DNA of 56,340 nt, from positions 1 through 56,340 of the forward strand of contig JAKQDP010000063.1 in assembly GCA_029558735.1 (NCBI GenBank), in the 5' to 3' direction. Below are positions 8,259 through 53,917 of this stretch, one piece after another. The position numbers and the translations under genes were made by a program. The DNA comes from a bacterium. GTDB lineage: Bacteria > Patescibacteriota > Patescibacteriia > 2-01-FULL-39-33. Position 1 is the first letter of the stretch. Each line of letters begins with the position of its first letter. The notes under the pieces were generated by a model, which was not told the origin of the DNA, made no database searches, and was given only the letters and a program-made list of their open reading frames with translations.

Positions 8259-9113
8259 ATGCTGGTCAAGGTAGTGGTCCACTGTCAAGCAAATACTCGA
8301 CATATCACCGGCGAAAAAGGGGTAAAATGGAATCTGGAACGCCAATTGGGAGGCTGTCTCGCCTATTCTCCTTTCACCGGCTATCTCGCCGGCGATAAAC
8401 TCCAAGCTTTCTTGAAAGAATGCCAAGAAGCCGATGTGGTAATCACCGACGCCTGGACCCACCCCGAAAAAAAACCCATCAATGCAACCAAAGCGGAAAA
8501 AGAAATGCTTCAAATCGTCGAGAAAATAAAGACCATCAATCCGGCGGCGGTGATTTTCACCCAACTAATGGCCGGCAAACAAAAAGTTGTAGCCCATCAA
8601 ATCGCCAAGCCGCATGAAAATTATCAGGATGAAAGCATTATCTTTGCCCTGACTAACGCTCAGGCGCTAAAACGGAATTTCGATCACTCGCTAGTTATGG
8701 TGGTGGATAATCAAGCCAAAAATCTCCGGGCGGCGCAAAACCAATTTTCTGACCGCGGACCGATAGTGTTTTCTTCCTATTTGGAAGCGATCGCGATGCT
8801 TGACCGCGGCCCTCAATTGGCAGCGGTGATGACCGACTTAATGATGCCCTATGAGTCAACCAACCGCCGCCATGATGGTCATAAAATTTTCAAACAGGAA
8901 GCGCCCATGGGAGTGTTTGTCGCTATTAAAGCCCTGGCTATGGGCGTGAGAAAAATTTTTATTGTCAGTGACATTGACTATTGCGACCATCCGGCTGAAA
9001 ACGCCGCCGAACTGCTTGCCTCCAGCACCGAACCAATCCGCTGGTTCTGTGGAAAAAATTGCCAACTAATTGACGGCCGGGTCAAGAATTGGCAGACAAT
9101 CCTTAATGCCTAA
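8259..9113 (+). CDS. Hypothetical protein with receiver-like segment
   Basis: 284 aa with strong SD (AAAGGAGGACAAAATG); VMVVDNQAKNLRAAQNQF...AAVMTDLMMP resembles a response-regulator receiver. Confidence 0.7.
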   Translation: MLVKVVVHCQANTRHITGEKGVKWNLERQLGGCLAYSPFTGYLAGDKLQAFLKECQEADVVITDAWTHPEKKPINATKAEKEMLQIVEKIKTINPAAVIFTQLMAGKQKVVAHQIAKPHENYQDESIIFALTNAQALKRNFDHSLVMVVDNQAKNLRAAQNQFSDRGPIVFSSYLEAIAMLDRGPQLAAVMTDLMMPYESTNRRHDGHKIFKQEAPMGVFVAIKALAMGVRKIFIVSDIDYCDHPAENAAELLASSTEPIRWFCGKNCQLIDGRVKNWQTILNA

Positions 9114-9119
9114 ACCTTT

Positions 9120-9159
9120 CCCCCGCAAGCGCAATCTGCTTCGCGGGGATTTTTTTACC
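9120..9159 (+). terminator. Intrinsic terminator
   Basis: CCCCGCAAGC / GCTTCGCGGGG stem followed by T7 tract. Confidence 0.8.
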
Positions 9160-9174
9160 CCCCCCCACATAAGT

Positions 9175-9246
9175 ACCGCCACGGAGAATTGAACTCCGGT
9201 TTTCGCCGTGAGAGGGCGACGTCCTGGGCCACTAGACGATGGCGGC
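9175..9246 (-). tRNA. tRNA-Glu (anticodon CTC)
   Basis: Minus strand GCCGCCATCGTCTAGTGGCCCAGGACGTCGCCCTCTCACGGCGAAAACCGGAGTTCAATTCTCCGTGGCGGTA; cloverleaf arms pair; loop CTCTCAC; CCA not encoded. Confidence 0.95.
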
Positions 9247-9414
9247 AAATAAATTTCTACCTCATTTTATTAAGCACAAATTATTATAGCGTTAAAACAA
9301 GAGAAAATCAAGATTAACTTATTAATTACGCCAACCAGCTGGCGTGCCTACGGCCGATAAACCAGTAAGCTAAAATAATAAAAATTCGGAAATTATAATT
9401 TTGAATTTATTTTT

Positions 9415-9960
9415 TTAATACTGATAGAAATAAATTCGGCCGAGTTCGGTATTATCATCATTAGTAATAATTTTCTTGTCCGGCTGGCGCTTGGGCAATT
9501 TAAAACTATAACTCACTAAACGACTACCGGGCTTCAACTCATTTTGAAATTTAGCCTCCAGTTTAACCATGGTTTCAGGAAAAAGATAGCAAAACACCAC
9601 ATCCGCCTCGCTTAAGTCCGCTTTGAAAAAATCCCGCCGCAAAATTTTCACTGGCGCCCCGCTTTTCCAAACATTAAACCGCGCCCACCAATAAGGCCAA
9701 AACACCAATTCATAGCCTATTCCTTTAGCTTGTTTTTCTTTGGCAGCCTTAATCAAAAAATGAGCCTTGCCGCAACCCAAATCAACTACCGTCTCCCCCG
9801 GTTTAATGTCCATGGCACGAATAATCGCGTCGTAATCTTTTTTGTTGGAAGAAATAAAGGGTATGCCGCCGACTCTGATTAAGCCGATAAAAACAGACAA
9901 CATCACTAAAGCAACAATCAAGGTAACCAACGAAATAAACATTAAAATAAAAATGATCAC
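9415..9960 (-). CDS. Class I SAM-dependent methyltransferase, membrane-anchored
   Basis: N-terminal TM; GETVVDLGCGKAHFLIKAAKE motif I. Confidence 0.75.
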   Translation of the reverse strand: MIIFILMFISLVTLIVALVMLSVFIGLIRVGGIPFISSNKKDYDAIIRAMDIKPGETVVDLGCGKAHFLIKAAKEKQAKGIGYELVFWPYWWARFNVWKSGAPVKILRRDFFKADLSEADVVFCYLFPETMVKLEAKFQNELKPGSRLVSYSFKLPKRQPDKKIITNDDNTELGRIYFYQY

Positions 9961-40529: not shown

Positions 40530-42116
40530 CTATAACAAACTCCGACCGGTCATATCGTCCGGCTTGGGCAAATCCATAATTTTCAGAATAGTCGGCGCCA
40601 CATCAGACAATAGTCCCGCCGGTTTGACTAAACTCAAATCAGAATTGGGACTGTCCGCCCCACCGCCGGTCTTACCTTCCCAGTGCCGGCCGACAATGAT
40701 TAACGGCACCGGATAGGTGCTGTGTTCTTTATCCATATTGCCTGATTGCAGATTGATTAGTTCCTCAGCATTGCCATGATCGGCCGTAATAACCACCACC
40801 CCGTTATGGGCCAGGGTCGCCTCAACAATCTTTTTTACGCCATTATCAACTGCTTCGCAGGCTTTAATCGTCGCTTTTAAGTCACCAGTATGACTCACCA
40901 TGTCGCCATTGGCAAAGTTCATAACAATAAAATCATAATGCTTAGCCATAATTTCCTTAATGGCACGCTGCGTGATCTCCTTAGCTGACATTTCCGGTTT
41001 ATCAGCATAAGAATCAACTCGCGGCGATGGTATTAATATTCGCTCTTCGCCGACAAACGCCTTTTCTTGGCCGCCATTAAAAAAGAAAGTGACATGAGCG
41101 TATTTTTCCGTCTCAGCAATATGCAATTGCTTCAGGCCGGCCTCGGCAATCACCTTAGCTAAGGGAGTGTCGATGGTTTCCGGCGGAAAGGCGACCTCGA
41201 CTGGCAAATCCTTCTCATATTCGGTCATAGTGACGAAATATAACCCGGACAGATATTCCCGGGGAAATTTGGCAAAACCGGGCAACACAAACGCTTTGGT
41301 CAATTCCCTGGCCCGATCCGCGCGAAAATTAAAAAATATTACCGCGTCTTGATGGCTGATGCGGCCCACCGGTTGGCCGTGTTCAGTAATCACTGTCGGA
41401 ATAAATTCCTCGTCGTAAATTTTTTTATCATAAGACGCTTTAACCGCTTCTACCGGATCACCAAAAAAATTTTCCGCCTCGCCGTTAACCATGGCATTAT
41501 AAGCCAAAACCAACCGCTCCCAATGATTATCACGATCCAGGGCATAAAATCGACCGGAAATAGAAGCGATTTTACCGATTTTTGAATCAACTAGCCGACT
41601 GTTGGCCTCGGCGACAAAATCAAGACCAGAGTTGTAAGGCATATCGCGACCATCCAAAATCGCATGAACCAAAACCTGATTTTTTAATTTTTCTTTCTGA
41701 CACAGTTCAACTAAAGCGTAAAAATGATCCATTGAAGAATGGACGCCGCCGGAAGAAACTAAGCCGACTAGATGAAGTTTGGAATTATTCCGACGAACAT
41801 GATTAATGGCGGCTAAAAATTTTTTATTGACAAAAAAATCACCGTCAGTGATTGCTTTGTTAATCCGCGGTAAATTTTGATAGACTAATTTACCCGAACC
41901 AAGGTTAAGGTGGCCGACTTCACTATTACCCATCTCCCCCCAAGACAACCCAACTGCTTCGCCGGCCGCCTGCAGAGACAGGGCCGGATAAGTTTTGATC
42001 AAATTATCAATAGTGGGCGTTTTGGCCAAAGCAATGGCATTGCTCCGTGATGGCGGGGCAATCCCCCAGCCATCCAAAACAATCAGTACCACCGGTTTAG
42101 GACGTTCTTGTTCCAT
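40530..42116 (-). CDS. gpmI: 2,3-bisphosphoglycerate-independent phosphoglycerate mutase (copy 1)
   Basis: LDGWG, GNSEVGHLNLGSG, LDGRD, FFNFRADRARELT, TADHGNAEEL. Confidence 0.95.
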   Translation of the reverse strand: MEQERPKPVVLIVLDGWGIAPPSRSNAIALAKTPTIDNLIKTYPALSLQAAGEAVGLSWGEMGNSEVGHLNLGSGKLVYQNLPRINKAITDGDFFVNKKFLAAINHVRRNNSKLHLVGLVSSGGVHSSMDHFYALVELCQKEKLKNQVLVHAILDGRDMPYNSGLDFVAEANSRLVDSKIGKIASISGRFYALDRDNHWERLVLAYNAMVNGEAENFFGDPVEAVKASYDKKIYDEEFIPTVITEHGQPVGRISHQDAVIFFNFRADRARELTKAFVLPGFAKFPREYLSGLYFVTMTEYEKDLPVEVAFPPETIDTPLAKVIAEAGLKQLHIAETEKYAHVTFFFNGGQEKAFVGEERILIPSPRVDSYADKPEMSAKEITQRAIKEIMAKHYDFIVMNFANGDMVSHTGDLKATIKACEAVDNGVKKIVEATLAHNGVVVITADHGNAEELINLQSGNMDKEHSTYPVPLIIVGRHWEGKTGGGADSPNSDLSLVKPAGLLSDVAPTILKIMDLPKPDDMTGRSLL

Positions 42117-42119
42117 AAG

Positions 42120-43673
42120 TTAAATAAGACTTTTTCTGGTCATTTCGGCTGGCGGCTGAAGATCAAAAAAATTTAGAATCGTCGGGGCAACATCACCTAA
42201 ATACCCCCGTTTGATTTTCTGTTTTTTTTCTTTTTTGCTGACGATAATCAACGGCACCGGATTGGTGGTGTGCTCAGTGATTATCTCTTTGGTTTCAAGA
42301 TTCAACATGGATTCTAGATTACCATGATCAGCGGTAATAAGCAAGACAACATTATTCTTCAAGCAAGCTTGGGCCACTTTTTTGACATACTTATCAACCG
42401 CTTCAGCAGTTCTAATACCAGCCCTGATATTACCAGTATGGCCAATCATATCCGGAGCAGCAAAATTGGCGCAAATAAAATCATGCATTTTTAAGCTGGC
42501 GATTAATTTCTGGGCCACCTTGGCCATCGACATTGCCGGCGTTTGATCATAGGCCGTCACTCTTGGCGAAGGGATTCTGACCCGTTTTTCCCCGGCCACT
42601 GGATCAGCATAGCCGCCGTTAAAAAAAAAGGTGACATGAGCGTATTTTTCACTTTCAGCAATATAAAGCTGACGAAAATCATGTAACATCATCGGCAGGG
42701 TGTTACGCAAATCCGCCGACGGATAAGCCGTTAAGATACTGTCCAAATCCGGACCAAAATCAGTCATCGCCACGAAAGCGATGTTTCGTAAAACACTCTT
42801 TCTTTTCGGGGCACCGGGATTTTTTCGCTCAAATTCTTGCTGAACAAACGGCTTGGCCAATTGACGCGCCCGATCACTGCGCAAATTGAAAAAAATTATC
42901 GCATCACCATTCTCAATTCTTCGAACCATTTTCTTGCGCCGCTGAATTACTATCGGTTCAATAAACTCATCGGTAATATCGGCATTGTAAGCGCGAGTAA
43001 TCCCGGCTTGGGGGCTGACGCTAATATGACCGCGACCGACAGTCATCGCCTCATACGCCCAAACAGTGCGGTCCCAGGCTTTTTTTCTATCCATAGCATA
43101 AAATCGACCGATAACAGTAGCAATAACTTCATGAGGCTTTAAAAAGCGTTCCAACGCCATCATTGATTTTAAGGAAGACCGGGGCGGCGAATCCCGACCA
43201 TCGGTAAATAAATGCAAATAAACATTCTTCACTTTCTGGGCCCGCAATAAAGTCAGTAAAGCCAATAAATGATCCGGGTCGCTATGGGGGCTCTGGCCAT
43301 TGGACAACAATCCCATTAAATGAACGGCGGATTTATTTTTTCGAGTATGACTAATCGCCGCGACAAAAGCCGGGTTTTTAAAAAATTGGCCGGTGTTAAT
43401 TTGTTTAGAAATCTTAACCACTTCCTGATCAGCGATGCGACCGGCGCCCAGATTGATATGACCGGCTTCGGAATTCCCTACTTGATTGGTTGGCAAGCCA
43501 GCGCACTTGCCGGAGGCGCAAAGTGTTGTCCAGGAATAATCGCGATAAAGCGAATCTAAAAATGGTGTTTTGGCAAGATGAATCGGATTGCCCGCGTCTG
43601 GCCGACCCAAACCCCAACCGTCCAAAATTAACAAAACTACTCTTCGGCGATTAATTGCATTCCTTTTAACCAT
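42120..43673 (-). CDS. gpmI: 2,3-bisphosphoglycerate-independent phosphoglycerate mutase (copy 2)
   Basis: LDGWG, GNSEAGHINLGAG, TDGRD, FFNLRSDRARQLA, TADHGNLESM. Confidence 0.94.
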   Translation of the reverse strand: MVKRNAINRRRVVLLILDGWGLGRPDAGNPIHLAKTPFLDSLYRDYSWTTLCASGKCAGLPTNQVGNSEAGHINLGAGRIADQEVVKISKQINTGQFFKNPAFVAAISHTRKNKSAVHLMGLLSNGQSPHSDPDHLLALLTLLRAQKVKNVYLHLFTDGRDSPPRSSLKSMMALERFLKPHEVIATVIGRFYAMDRKKAWDRTVWAYEAMTVGRGHISVSPQAGITRAYNADITDEFIEPIVIQRRKKMVRRIENGDAIIFFNLRSDRARQLAKPFVQQEFERKNPGAPKRKSVLRNIAFVAMTDFGPDLDSILTAYPSADLRNTLPMMLHDFRQLYIAESEKYAHVTFFFNGGYADPVAGEKRVRIPSPRVTAYDQTPAMSMAKVAQKLIASLKMHDFICANFAAPDMIGHTGNIRAGIRTAEAVDKYVKKVAQACLKNNVVLLITADHGNLESMLNLETKEIITEHTTNPVPLIIVSKKEKKQKIKRGYLGDVAPTILNFFDLQPPAEMTRKSLI

Positions 43674-47250: not shown

Positions 47251-47505
47251 TTACTCCCCTTCTATGTCCTCCAGCACCCACTTGTCTCCGCTGACTTTAT
47301 TGACCGCTATTTCCAAACCATCAGCCGAACCGCCCTGGGCCAGCAGCTTGATATTGAAAATAAGATTTTCCGGCAACACTTCTTCGCCGTGCTCAACAAT
47401 CGAGCCCAAGCTGATAGTGGCTTTGGTTATTTTTTTTAGATTATTTTTTGCCGCATAATCCATAATTGTCTTATAGATTATGTCAGCCAGATGAAAATCG
47501 TGCAT
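47251..47505 (-). CDS. hypA: HypA-like hydrogenase nickel-insertion protein lacking the zinc-finger domain
   Basis: MHDFHLADIIYKTIMDYAAKNNLKKITKATISLGSI...LPENLIFNIKLLAQGGSADGLEIAVNKVSGDKWVLEDIEGE; N-terminal MHD; no Cys residues. Confidence 0.7.
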   Translation of the reverse strand: MHDFHLADIIYKTIMDYAAKNNLKKITKATISLGSIVEHGEEVLPENLIFNIKLLAQGGSADGLEIAVNKVSGDKWVLEDIEGE

Positions 47506-47517
47506 AAAATTTTATAA

Positions 47518-48150
47518 TTAATTTTCCAAATCAATAAATTTAGCCGTATTAAAAACTTCCGTTTCAGCTGATACCAACCTATAATTATCTATAATAATAA
47601 TTGCCCGTCCACGATCATCTGTTAATAAGTTTAGCTTCTCTTTGGCCAGACTAAGACCTGAATCATAACTATTCGTGAAACAAAGATATAAATCTCTTTG
47701 GTCAGTATGCAGGGTTGGAATCAATTTAACAGAGTTATCATCAAAATTCATAAAACATAATCTTTCGATGCCACCAAAACCGCTATTTGTCTCGTATTTA
47801 TAATCGCCAGTAATAACAGCTCGGCCAGAAAATTGTATCTTGACATTATAATCGCCCAGAGAAAAGCTATCAAGTGCGGGCTCAATAGAATTAATGGTCA
47901 TATTTCCCATCTTATCACCAACTTTTACCCCACTAAGATTAAATGAATTATTACCAGTTTCCGAATCTTCATCCATGGGTCCGTAAGAATTATCATCACT
48001 AATATCTGGATTATTCTCCGAGCTACCGCTGCCACTATTTATATTATTATCTTCAATCGTCACTAAATCTTCATCTGGATTTAAATAATTTTGTTGCTCT
48101 TTCTGAAATTTTAAGGAACAGCCGGAAAAAAGCAACAAGCAACAAACCAT
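47518..48150 (-). CDS. Putative lipoprotein, unknown function
   Basis: Lipobox LFSGC, Ser/Asn/Asp-rich linker, C-terminal globular domain. Confidence 0.6.
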   Translation of the reverse strand: MVCCLLLFSGCSLKFQKEQQNYLNPDEDLVTIEDNNINSGSGSSENNPDISDDNSYGPMDEDSETGNNSFNLSGVKVGDKMGNMTINSIEPALDSFSLGDYNVKIQFSGRAVITGDYKYETNSGFGGIERLCFMNFDDNSVKLIPTLHTDQRDLYLCFTNSYDSGLSLAKEKLNLLTDDRGRAIIIIDNYRLVSAETEVFNTAKFIDLEN

Positions 48151-48167
48151 TTTTAATTAATATTTAT

Positions 48168-49499
48168 TTAATGCGTGGCGCAGGCAATACACGGGTCATA
48201 AGCGCGAATCAGAGCGCGGATTTTTATCGCCCGCTTTTTCGGATTCAACTTCATCACATTAGGGATATAAGCCAAAACATCCTGTTCCAAATTCTTAAGA
48301 TAGGACACGGTCGGCGTGATAATATTGCAATTAGTCAGATAACCGTTTTTATCTATTTTGTAATGGTGGTACAAAGTGCCCCGCGGCGCTTCGATCGCGT
48401 CAACGCCAACCGTCTCACAACTAAGCGGATTGGCACCGGCAATCAAATTTAATGAAAGCCGAGCATCCTCTTTACTCTTACCCCCTCCTAACCTCCCCAT
48501 TCGCAAAGAGGAGGAATCAGATAATAAATCTCGCAAAATTTTTTTGGCTTCTTCCAGGCAGTGGATGATTTCAATCGCTTGGGCAGTAATGTTTTCAAAA
48601 GTATTATATTGCGGCAATTGCCAATTCATCCCCTTGAGCAATCCCTTGGCCAATGGGTTGAGCTGTTGCCAATTGTTGTTAATTCGCGCCAAAGCCCCGA
48701 CCATAAACGGCTCGCCGTCCAAAGTGGCTGATTTGGCCGCCCGATAGGGCTCTTCTATTTCTTTGATATTTTGAGTATATTTTTCCGCCTTAATAATTCT
48801 GGACTGGCTGGCTGACGGAAAAATTTTAATATCGCCGTCATATAGAGCATACTCTTTGGAATTGGTCAGACTGACAAAAGTGGTCGGCCGGCTGAACTTT
48901 GGATACTTAATGGAAATAACAAAGTTGGCCAAGCCCAAAGCATTTTTCAAAACAACTTCATACTGGTCGGCCAAATTTTTTAATTCATTTTTTTCCGGCA
49001 ACACTTTAAAACCACCAACCTCACAGGCAATCGGATGAACCGCTCGACCGCCAACCACTTCGATAATTTTGAGCGCCCACTGTCTGGTATTGATGGCGCA
49101 TTGTGTTTCTTTGGGATATTTTTTGACAAAATTCAAATCGTTTTCAATATTGAAAAAATCCGGCAATGACAAAAAGAAAAGATGCAGGGCATGGCTATGG
49201 ATGATTTGAGCCAGATTGATCAACTTACGCAGCTTGACTGTTTGTTGGCTGGGACGAATTTCAAAAGCATTTTCAATCGCTTTAATTGATGACAATTTAT
49301 GGACTACCGGACAAATACCGCAAATGCGGGAAGTGATAATCGGCGCTTCTTTAAAATGACGGCCGATCAAAATCCCCTCAATCAGCCGCGCCCCCTCGGT
49401 GGTAATCAATTTTGCCGATTGGACATCTCCCTTTAAGATTTCAGCCACAAAATCAGCGTGGCCTTCCATTTTGCCGATATGGTTTATTTGAATTTTCAT
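48168..49499 (-). CDS. hydA: [NiFe]-hydrogenase large (alpha) subunit, group 3b/sulfhydrogenase-like
   Basis: L1 RICGICPVVHKLSS and C-terminal DPCIACATH* Ni ligands; EAPRGTLYHHY. Confidence 0.93.
   Translation of the reverse strand: MKIQINHIGKMEGHADFVAEILKGDVQSAKLITTEGARLIEGILIGRHFKEAPIITSRICGICPVVHKLSSIKAIENAFEIRPSQQTVKLRKLINLAQIIHSHALHLFFLSLPDFFNIENDLNFVKKYPKETQCAINTRQWALKIIEVVGGRAVHPIACEVGGFKVLPEKNELKNLADQYEVVLKNALGLANFVISIKYPKFSRPTTFVSLTNSKEYALYDGDIKIFPSASQSRIIKAEKYTQNIKEIEEPYRAAKSATLDGEPFMVGALARINNNWQQLNPLAKGLLKGMNWQLPQYNTFENITAQAIEIIHCLEEAKKILRDLLSDSSSLRMGRLGGGKSKEDARLSLNLIAGANPLSCETVGVDAIEAPRGTLYHHYKIDKNGYLTNCNIITPTVSYLKNLEQDVLAYIPNVMKLNPKKRAIKIRALIRAYDPCIACATH
48478..48517. repeat. 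Palindromic repeat-like segment embedded in the hydrogenase large-subunit ORF
   Basis: TTACCCCCTCCTAACCTCCCCATTCGCAAAGAGGAGGAAT; in frame, encodes Ser/Gly-rich SSSLRMGRLGGGKS. Confidence 0.5.
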
Positions 49500-50059: not shown

Positions 50060-50899
50060 TCATTTCAATTTTTTAATTTTATTATCAATTTTATTAACCT
50101 TAGACTTTCCGAACTTTCGATTTTTCTTCCCCTGCATTTCTTCCAGCCTTTTTAAAATGGTATCTCTGGCGCCAAACACTTCCATTATCCGATAAACTTG
50201 CTCCCGAGAAAAATGCTTTAATAAATAATTCATAAAATTTTCCACCTGCGCGCCGTCAAATAAGCCCCGGCAACCCCAACAGGCCTGCTTGGATTTTAGG
50301 CAGACGGCCTTGCAACCACCCAAGGTAATCGGCCCCAAGCAGATCTCCTCTTGCTGTAACAAGCATTGATATCCCCGACTCTGACATTCATAACAAACGG
50401 GATTTTGCGGAATGCGGAAACTGCCTTTTTTCAATAATTGATTAGCCAACTCAATAAATTCATCACCATCAATCGGACAACCGGGAATGACATAATCAAC
50501 TTTGACAAAATTGTCCACTTCTTTAATATCGGGGTTAGCTACTTTTAATTTTTTATATACTGCTTTAATCGCTCTGGTCTTGGACGCGTAATTTTTGAGT
50601 TCCCACACTCCGCCCAAGGCGGCGCAATTGCCCACCACCACCAACTTGTCCGAACGACAGCGCATCTCCTTGAGTAATTTGATATTTGCCTTGGTAACCG
50701 GATTACCCTCGACAAAACAAATATCATAATGCTCCGCCAGTATCGGCTCATCTTCCACTAGCCGGAATTCTTCCAACTGCACCTTGGCCAGCCAATCCAA
50801 AAATCTCCTACCCTGGTCAAGCATCACAAATTGACAACCCTCGCAGGAAGTCAATCCGATAATGGCTATTTTGGGTTTGATGTTTTTTCTTTTGGTCAT
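50060..50899 (-). CDS. hydD: [NiFe]-hydrogenase small (delta) subunit
   Basis: GLTSCEGCQFVML, VVVGNCAALGG, VIPGCPIDGDEF, CYECQSRGYQC...GGCKAVC...CWGCRG. Confidence 0.93.
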   Translation of the reverse strand: MTKRKNIKPKIAIIGLTSCEGCQFVMLDQGRRFLDWLAKVQLEEFRLVEDEPILAEHYDICFVEGNPVTKANIKLLKEMRCRSDKLVVVGNCAALGGVWELKNYASKTRAIKAVYKKLKVANPDIKEVDNFVKVDYVIPGCPIDGDEFIELANQLLKKGSFRIPQNPVCYECQSRGYQCLLQQEEICLGPITLGGCKAVCLKSKQACWGCRGLFDGAQVENFMNYLLKHFSREQVYRIMEVFGARDTILKRLEEMQGKKNRKFGKSKVNKIDNKIKKLK

Positions 50900-50981: not shown

Positions 50982-51725
50982 TCACGGATTGACCGCGGCT
51001 AAAGTCATTTTAGTATACTTATCCAAGTTCTGAGCCTGTTCGATACTTAAACATTCAATCGCCCAATAGTGATGGAAAGCGACGACGCTGCCGGTATCAA
51101 CCGCCGAATCATTGGGATTGAGTATTCCCCAATCAACCATTTTTTTCTCCGGCTTGCCGATTCTGACGATCCGCTTATAATCAAACAACAGCGGCTGATA
51201 CATAACTGTCAATTGTTCGCCACGCTCAATGACAATACCGGAACAAACGCGACAGCTATCCAGGCTGTTCTGGATTGATTTTGTCACCAACGAATCCAGC
51301 TCTATACCCGGTCGAGTAAAAAAATATAATACTGACAAGCTGTGGTGGGCTCGAGCTTTTTCCAGACTAATAGCCCGAAACATTAAGGCAATATGCTCGG
51401 GATTCCAGCCTTCGCGCTTAACGTCCTGTTCAATCACCCAACCCACCGCCTCTGGCGTCACTTTATCCAATAAGCCATTCCCCAACCAATATGCCTCAAC
51501 CACCCGATCATCAAAAGGATCGCTGATGCTATTGGCTCGAGCAATCAGAGTGTAATAGGGGGTGGCTACTTCGAACTGCTTCAAAATTTCCCTAATGGTT
51601 AATTCGGCAAAATCCGCTCGTCCGGTAACATAATCGAAAAGAACTTTATGGGCGTCTTTGGGTCCGCAACGCTCCAACATATTCGGCTTAATGGAATAAG
51701 CCGCCGCTCGCTTAAGTCCGTTCAT
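50982..51725 (-). CDS. Hydrogenase-locus protein of unknown function (DUF6390-like)
   Basis: PNMLERCGPKD...DDRVVEAYWLGNGLLD...AFHHYWAIECLS; start set at MNGLKRAAAYS with SD GGGGAGGAGA inside hypC; family assigned from memory. Confidence 0.6.
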   Translation of the reverse strand: MNGLKRAAAYSIKPNMLERCGPKDAHKVLFDYVTGRADFAELTIREILKQFEVATPYYTLIARANSISDPFDDRVVEAYWLGNGLLDKVTPEAVGWVIEQDVKREGWNPEHIALMFRAISLEKARAHHSLSVLYFFTRPGIELDSLVTKSIQNSLDSCRVCSGIVIERGEQLTVMYQPLLFDYKRIVRIGKPEKKMVDWGILNPNDSAVDTGSVVAFHHYWAIECLSIEQAQNLDKYTKMTLAAVNP

Positions 51726-51927
51726 TTTTTCTCTCCTCCCCAATTAAATCCAATACCGCCTGCGCCTCATTAGCCCCTATTTTATTAACAATAATTCCAT
51801 TGACTGTCAAGACCCAATCACCTTGTTTTAGATCGGGAATCAAAACGGCATTAACCTTGCGACCGTCAAACAATTCGGCCCGGTCGCCTGAAATATTTTT
51901 AATTTGGAGAGGGATGGCGAGACACAT
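51712..51927 (-). CDS. hypC: HypC/HupF-like hydrogenase maturation chaperone
   Basis: MCLAIPLQIKNISGDRAELFDGRKVNAVLIPDLKQGDWVLTVNGIIVNKI; N-terminal MCLAIP. Confidence 0.88.
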   Translation of the reverse strand: MCLAIPLQIKNISGDRAELFDGRKVNAVLIPDLKQGDWVLTVNGIIVNKIGANEAQAVLDLIGEERKNERT

Positions 51928-52025: not shown

Positions 52026-52853
52026 TTATAGACTGTAGTAATCCTTAATATCCAGCCAGCGAAATACCGGACCATCCTTGCAAACATAAAATGGGCCGAT
52101 AGCGCAGTGCTGACAGACACCAATGCCGCAATGCATCCGTTTTTCCAAAGAGAGGATAATATTTTCGTCGCTTAATTTCTTATGCTTCAGTTCTTTGATG
52201 ACAAATCTATACATCACTGGCGGACCGACCAAAACCGCTACCGTCTGGGCGCTGATTTTTATCCGGCCAAGCAAATCCGTCACCAAGCCTCTGTCTCCCT
52301 TCCAATTAGTTGACGGTTTTTCCAAAATGACTTTTAATTCCGCCCGGCGATTCCAAGCGGCATGATTCTTTTTAAACAGCATCGTCTCTTCACTGGCACA
52401 GCCGTAAAGTATCTGTAAAGTTTTGCTTTCCAATCGTCCGGCCAGATAATCAATAATAAGCGGACGCAACGGCACAAAGCCGCAACCGCCGCCAACAAGT
52501 AAAAGCGGCTTGCCCTTAAATAAGTCAACATCAAATCCGTTACCGAATGGGCCGCGGATGTCGACGCAATCACCAGCAGATAGACTATTTAATTTATTAG
52601 TCAAAACACCAATATCCCTAATAGCCAGCTCAAAAAAAGTTTCACTATCGTTGGGCGACGAACAGATACTGATTGGGCACTCGCCCCAGCCAGGCAATCC
52701 TATTTGCACAAATTGTCCGGGCAAGAAATGAAAATTTTTCTTGATTTCCGAGTCAATAAATTCCAGCCGCAACAACTTGGTGTCAACCGACTCCTGACTA
52801 GCTGATATAATCCTGACTTTATTGGTTTGATAGATGTTGAGCATAAAAAACAC
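52026..52853 (-). CDS. hydG: Sulfhydrogenase gamma subunit / NAD(P)H diaphorase (FAD, NAD(P), [2Fe-2S])
   Basis: LLLVGGGCGFVPLRPLI; LEKRMHCGIGVCQHCAIGPFYVCKDGPVF. Confidence 0.93.
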   Translation of the reverse strand: MFFMLNIYQTNKVRIISASQESVDTKLLRLEFIDSEIKKNFHFLPGQFVQIGLPGWGECPISICSSPNDSETFFELAIRDIGVLTNKLNSLSAGDCVDIRGPFGNGFDVDLFKGKPLLLVGGGCGFVPLRPLIIDYLAGRLESKTLQILYGCASEETMLFKKNHAAWNRRAELKVILEKPSTNWKGDRGLVTDLLGRIKISAQTVAVLVGPPVMYRFVIKELKHKKLSDENIILSLEKRMHCGIGVCQHCAIGPFYVCKDGPVFRWLDIKDYYSL

Positions 52854-52933: not shown

Positions 52934-53917
52934 TTAAACTTTCTTCAACACCTCCTCTATCTTTATTCCGACCGGACAAACTTTACTGCAGCGGCCACAG
53001 CCGACACAGCCGGGCATCATATATTCAAAGGGAATGCGCACGAATTTATGATAATACCAAAAAAATATTTTTTTACTGACAGTATCCAGTTCCTTGCCAC
53101 CGCCGGCAACCAAAGAAAAATCATTATAAAAACAACTACCCCATTTGCGCACCCGTTCGGGATTATCCGGGTCCACACTATCTTCCAAATCAAAACAAAA
53201 ACAAGTCGGACAATTGATGGAGCATTTACCGCAGGCAATACAAATTTTATTCAATTCATGCCAAATCCTTTTACCTTGTGAAGATTCCATTTTTTTCTTC
53301 AGAAGCAACATTTTTTTATCCGGACCTTTTTCAGAAATCGGACCGGCAAATTCAATGTGTTCGTAATCTTTGATGCCACCTTCTTCCAAAATATGCTGAC
53401 CCTTTTCTGAACCGGAATAAATTTTCATCCGACCGACGGCAAATTGGGCGATAAAAATATCAAAAATCAAATGTTCCAAAATATCTTCTTCAAAATTATG
53501 GCTGAATATTTTATATTTTTTGTAATCATTGGGCCAGCTGGAGCTGTAACCAATAATCAGGGTATTGCATCGCCTTTCTTGATAATAGACATCGCGACTA
53601 AAAACTAACTCCAATAAAGTCAACGCCTTGAGATCAACAACATTGACGCCAATAGCGGCTATTTTCGGCTGACTGGTTTTCGATTTGACTAATCGGCCGT
53701 CGCTAATGTCAAACATTTTTTCCCGTGCCGGTAAAAATAATGCCTTCCAGGTATTTGTGGGCATACGACCCGACCAATCAACATCGCCGATATCCCGGAC
53801 TTCTTTAATATTAATAACCGCACCGTCTTGTTGCGGCGCAAACAAAAAAAATTCTTCAGACAACTTATTCAAAAAAACCTGTATTTCATTGTTCATAATA
53901 AATACATTATAACACAA
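52934..53917 (-). CDS. hydB: Sulfhydrogenase beta subunit (two 4Fe-4S clusters)
   Basis: CIACGKCSINCPTCFCFDLED and CVGCGRCSKVCPVGIKIEEV. Confidence 0.9.
   Translation of the reverse strand: MCYNVFIMNNEIQVFLNKLSEEFFLFAPQQDGAVINIKEVRDIGDVDWSGRMPTNTWKALFLPAREKMFDISDGRLVKSKTSQPKIAAIGVNVVDLKALTLLELVFSRDVYYQERRCNTLIIGYSSSWPNDYKKYKIFSHNFEEDILEHLIFDIFIAQFAVGRMKIYSGSEKGQHILEEGGIKDYEHIEFAGPISEKGPDKKMLLLKKKMESSQGKRIWHELNKICIACGKCSINCPTCFCFDLEDSVDPDNPERVRKWGSCFYNDFSLVAGGGKELDTVSKKIFFWYYHKFVRIPFEYMMPGCVGCGRCSKVCPVGIKIEEVLKKV

Follow-up and report, generated by a model that had tools for sequence, protein, structure and literature searches.

HypA84, a Conserved Zinc-Free HypA Variant Linked to [NiFe]-Hydrogenase in Patescibacteria and Predicted to Deliver Nickel without HypB

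The last gene of a [NiFe]-hydrogenase run in an ultra-small bacterium (Patescibacteria) encodes an 84-aa protein, termed here HypA84, which is a conserved zinc-free variant of HypA. Judging from its sequence and a structural model, HypA84 is probably a minimal HypA, composed of the nickel domain alone, that is predicted to deliver nickel without HypB. According to a review of nickel chaperones, all HypA proteins hold both a nickel and a zinc site (PMC7055735), and HypA84 departs from this rule; a search of the open-access literature turned up no earlier description of a HypA without zinc. A conserved, natural zinc-domain-free HypA in genomes where no HypB was detected offers a direct way to ask what purpose the GTPase and the zinc domain serve.

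The HypA84 gene and its locus

The stretch of DNA analyzed (the window) spans 56,340 nt. HypA84 is encoded on its minus strand (CDS 47254-47505, stop codon 47251-47253), with an ATG at position 47505 that opens 84 codons ending at 47254; the plus strand of 47251-47505 carries an internal stop. The product, MHDFHLADIIYKTIMDYAAKNNLKKITKATISLGSIVEHGEEVLPENLIFNIKLLAQGGSADGLEIAVNKVSGDKWVLEDIEGE, has no Cys, starts with MHD and ends with KWVLEDIEGE, and the description of the ORF in the initial annotation, which gave no strand, was confirmed. The codons of Met1-His2, the invariant N-terminal nickel-site residues that precede Asp3, are located at 47500..47505 (minus), those of V37-E38-H39-G40, four residues that canonical HypA lacks and that include the invariant His39, at 47386..47397 (minus), and those of residues 73-84 (GDKWVLEDIEGE), which form the final strand that has been retained, at 47254..47289 (minus).

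The genes of the run are all in the minus strand, in the order beta subunit (4Fe-4S; 52934..53917), gamma subunit (FAD/NAD(P); 52026..52853), HypC (51712..51927), a hydrogenase-associated DUF6390 protein (50982..51743), small (delta) subunit (50060..50899), two small ORFs, the group 3b/sulfhydrogenase-like [NiFe]-hydrogenase large (alpha) subunit (48168..49499), a lipoprotein-like ORF and HypA84. As had been proposed, HypA84 is the distal gene, and phosphoglycerate kinase comes next; the three frames downstream of HypA84 were checked, and the earlier statement that they hold no CxxC remnant stood. The lipoprotein-like ORF (47518-48150, 210 aa), which lies between the large subunit and HypA84, has no Pfam match and was not found in the other fetched hydrogenase loci, and in the relatives unrelated genes occupy this slot. 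In addition, a tandem pair of ORFs that resemble 2,3-bisphosphoglycerate-independent phosphoglycerate mutase (40530-43673; 528 and 517 aa, identified by eye only) is part of a glycolytic cluster with enolase and phosphoglycerate kinase that adjoins the hydrogenase.

The large subunit of the window keeps all four ligand Cys and stops exactly at DPCIACATH, with no C-terminal extension, and nearly all the HypA84-linked large subunits end likewise at DPCxxCATH. Because these sequences leave no peptide to cleave, we infer that the nickel-checking step of the maturation protease is absent for the window enzyme.

Profile and fold comparison with HypA

The only Pfam match of the window HypA84 was HypA (PF01155; 24.8 bits, E 2.4e-5), and it covered positions 1-69 of the 112 of the profile, i.e., the nickel domain only. 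This score falls under the curated cut-off (28.9) because the zinc half is missing; among the 36 genomes that carry the family (see below), the copies exceeded the cut-off in 23 and matched at E<=0.01 in all. The NCBIfam HypA models recognized the window protein with E values down to 2.6e-7, BLAST with E. coli HypA retrieved members of the HypA84 family, and a profile of the 36 homologues searched against PDB sequences found Thermococcus kodakarensis HypA (3a43) at E 1.4e-9. When the family profile was compared with that of canonical HypA, the match (E 1.4e-16) was interrupted by a single insertion, the four residues V37 to G40.

The AlphaFold2 model of HypA84 (pLDDT 90.9) has the order alpha1-beta1-alpha2-beta2-beta3, and with Foldseek its top 14 matches in the PDB were all HypA, the next one being at E 0.056. 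The alignments, of 117 columns with 3a43_B (TMq 0.84) and of 118-119 columns with 6g81 and 2kdx, ran the full length of the HypA targets and left ~34 gap columns, which therefore correspond to the zinc domain, with the last strand matched. Furthermore, when a 12-column C-terminal profile of the family was run along 8 canonical HypAs, its top score fell precisely on their C-terminal strand in 7. An alignment to canonical HypA made with MAFFT by itself misplaced the last strand, and the identity of the strand was taken from the fold alignment and this position test. The zinc loop is therefore cleanly gone from its place between beta-2 and the closing strand, and the proposal that it was excised rather than truncated was borne out by the beta-3 strand, the strand test and the gap. 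The HypA-like core that had been recognized in the ORF also held, since profile, PDB sequence and modeled fold all pointed to HypA, and by these comparisons HypA84 is a HypA homologue with the HypA fold. Of the features that define HypA membership, the nickel-domain fold is present in the AlphaFold2 and Foldseek analyses and the N-terminal Met-His is invariant in the 36 copies, with Asp rather than Glu at position 3, a replacement noted earlier for the window protein that proved general in the family. The zinc site with two CxxC is absent from all 36, and HypA84 is accordingly a variant and not a standard HypA.

The best match in both sequence and fold, T. kodakarensis HypA (PDB 3a43, 5aun, 5yxy), shares with HypA84 the MH-start nickel domain alpha1-beta1-alpha2-beta2 and the closing strand, but it also contains a zinc domain, which bears two CxxC, lacks the VEHG insertion, and uses His98 as a nickel ligand when bound to the HypB ATPase. 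The E. coli and Helicobacter pylori HypA/HybF proteins (PDB 6g81, 2kdx) have a like fold around the nickel site; unlike HypA84, they start with MHE, have an essential or regulatory zinc domain, and work with a HypB GTPase partner.

Distribution in Patescibacteria

A survey of related Patescibacteria for Cys-less HypA found full-length homologues (83-87 aa) in 36 of 193 genomes; 30 of them are Cys-free and none has a CxxC. Two weak matches were left out of this count, one being the canonical HypA of genome G124 and the other lying within an 848-aa frame of G157. Public records retrieved with a closer subset of the homologues were all from Patescibacteria MAGs or bacterial MAGs, and they include Buchananbacteria, Falkowbacteria, Uhrbacteria, Komeilibacteria and Paceibacterota. 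HypA84 is obligately linked to a group-3b-like [NiFe]-hydrogenase: the large subunit was present in 36/36 carriers, HypA84 in 0/126 genomes without a large subunit (Fisher p 7.6e-21, relatedness ignored), and in nearly all the fetched loci HypA84 adjoins the hydrogenase genes. A second, chimeric-looking ORF in one locus (L068 of G128, 8967-9864, minus), in which the N-terminal ~60 residues of HypA84 run on into the C-terminal part of the large subunit, is either a recombination product or an assembly error.

The initial annotation had considered that a canonical HypA might be encoded elsewhere in the genome; none was found by profile search in the 36 carrier genomes, which, like the whole set, are draft MAGs whose absences are based on profiles. 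Such a protein is detectable if present, as shown by G124, a genome of the same class as that of the window, which encodes a related large subunit alongside HypC and DUF6390 but no HypA84, and whose HypA (L073:8968-9363) is a 131-aa protein with MHE, two CxxC pairs and a full-length Pfam match of 79.5 bits.

Nickel site and putative HypB-independent delivery

Only M1, H2, D3, A7, G34 and H39 are invariant in the 36 copies of HypA84. The nickel ligands of H. pylori HypA are M1, H2, E3 and D40 (PMC5557546), and His39 of HypA84 is found, within the insertion, in the same beta1-alpha2 loop as D40, near to it but not aligned with it, which suggests that the nickel site persists, perhaps in a rebuilt form. 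When T. kodakarensis HypA is in complex with HypB, His98 joins the MHE motif at the nickel (PMC7055735); from its numbering we place this residue in the zinc domain, and His39 of HypA84 may thus replace a ligand that was lost along with that domain.

The G3E GTPase HypB (TIGR00073) was found in 0/36 carrier genomes by profile, with 4 control genomes above the cut-off, and a motif scan of the fetched loci revealed no MinD-like or HypB motif; from both results we infer that the nickel loading of HypA84 is HypB-independent. In two genomes (G066 and G176), HypA84 occurs along with intact HypCDE, and HypB and Zn-HypA were still undetected. Mutation of the zinc Cys in H. pylori HypA strongly impairs maturation, so that a HypA free of zinc has to act in another way than the H. 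pylori protein. In the mechanism that we propose, HypA84 would use the amine of Met1, the imidazole of His2 and amides of the backbone to bind Ni(II), and His39 of the new loop insertion would be the outer ligand, a part played by Asp40 in H. pylori HypA and by His98 in the HypB-loaded T. kodakarensis protein; the loaded protein would then dock onto the immature large subunit and pass the nickel straight to it, with no HypB GTPase step, and maturation would proceed without cleavage of a C-terminal peptide.

Alternative explanations

A truncated or frameshifted normal HypA, i.e., a pseudogene or an assembly artefact, might be suspected from a small ORF in a draft genome. This explanation has a negligible probability, and was rejected, because the family is conserved at 83-87 aa in 36 genomes with the last strand intact and with neither a CxxC nor a frameshift remnant; in addition, the dN/dS of 0.23, obtained with 1 of the 6 relatives compared (dS was saturated in the other 5), indicates purifying selection. 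We also consider it very improbable that HypA is split and that a zinc domain encoded elsewhere serves the nickel domain of 84 aa in trans. Weak matches to positions ~59-110 of the HypA profile do occur elsewhere in the window genome (G000) and in some relatives, but they are below the cut-off, are not the same from one genome to the next and map outside the hydrogenase locus, and HypA84 already holds the closing strand. The best candidate in the window genome, from a contig of 1.8 kb (C49), was discarded, since the 140-aa protein concerned holds an unrelated zinc ribbon that is not HypA-like.

Less remote, but still unlikely, is that the HypA fold has been kept and the nickel role lost, so that the protein serves as an assembly or structural factor that holds the place of the large-subunit N-terminus, as in the HyhL-HypA complex. 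The loss of both HypB and the zinc domain would fit such a role, as would the contact of the T. kodakarensis HypA nickel site with the N-terminus of the large subunit (PMC7055735), and the lack of detected HypD, HypE and HypF in the window genome puts the hydrogenase cofactor itself in doubt. However, the nickel-site residues M1, H2 and D3 plus H39 are invariant, and the four Cys ligands of the large subunit are retained. In addition, HypA84 is constant across all three types of locus, those with HypDE, HypC-HydE or DUF6390, and this favors a role in nickel delivery over one in the supply of Fe(CN)2CO.

Other maturation genes of the carrier genomes

HypD and HypE scored above the cut-off in only 2 of the 36 carriers (G066 and G176), and a HypF-type protein with a substantial score was found in these two and in G033 only. 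The HypF-profile matches seen in most genomes are below the cut-off and were set aside as probable TsaD/Kae1, Sua5 and acylphosphatase paralogues, by the segments matched and the frame lengths. Profiles detected no HypB, HypD, HypE, full HypF, HydE or HydG in the genome of the window, which is 99.2% complete and assembled in 75 contigs. The case also presents hydrogenases largely without the genes for iron-cyanide-carbonyl assembly.

In nine Patescibacteria, HypC is fused to a radical-SAM maturase of the HydE type (249-285 bits, cut-off 254.6), a type that belongs to [FeFe]-hydrogenase maturation. The fusions sit inside or near [NiFe]-hydrogenase operons, e.g., at L038:11625-12887 (minus) and L051:3909-5180 (plus), and also in L040, L041, L045, L140-L142 and L147. 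HydG (563-600 bits) adjoins the fusion in 5 of the 9 genomes, and in G019 and G026 it is part of the [NiFe] operon. This arrangement suggests a putative radical-SAM supply of CO/CN to the [NiFe] enzyme. In 17 genomes, including that of the window, the operon carries DUF6390 in place of HypC-HydE, and the two never occur together (p 0.001, phylogeny ignored); an EamA transporter accompanies DUF6390 in many relatives. No report on the function of DUF6390 or on the HypC-HydE fusion was found in the open-access literature. Tentatively, and with somewhat less than an even chance of being right, a four-cysteine [NiFe]-hydrogenase might be matured here by a route other than HypABCDEF, in which zinc-free HypA without HypB would provide the nickel half, and HypDEF would be replaced by HypC-HydE (with HydG), or by DUF6390 (with EamA) supplying, scavenging or bypassing the Fe(CN)2CO ligands.

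The model of DUF6390 shows a helical N-terminal domain and an OB-type barrel, and C158, H128 and H218 are invariant. The fold search gave nothing significant; the weak OB-barrel matches include T. kodakarensis HypC (E 0.09, TMt 0.58). DUF6390 also adjoins a second type of hydrogenase, which has a C-terminal extension (L135-L150).
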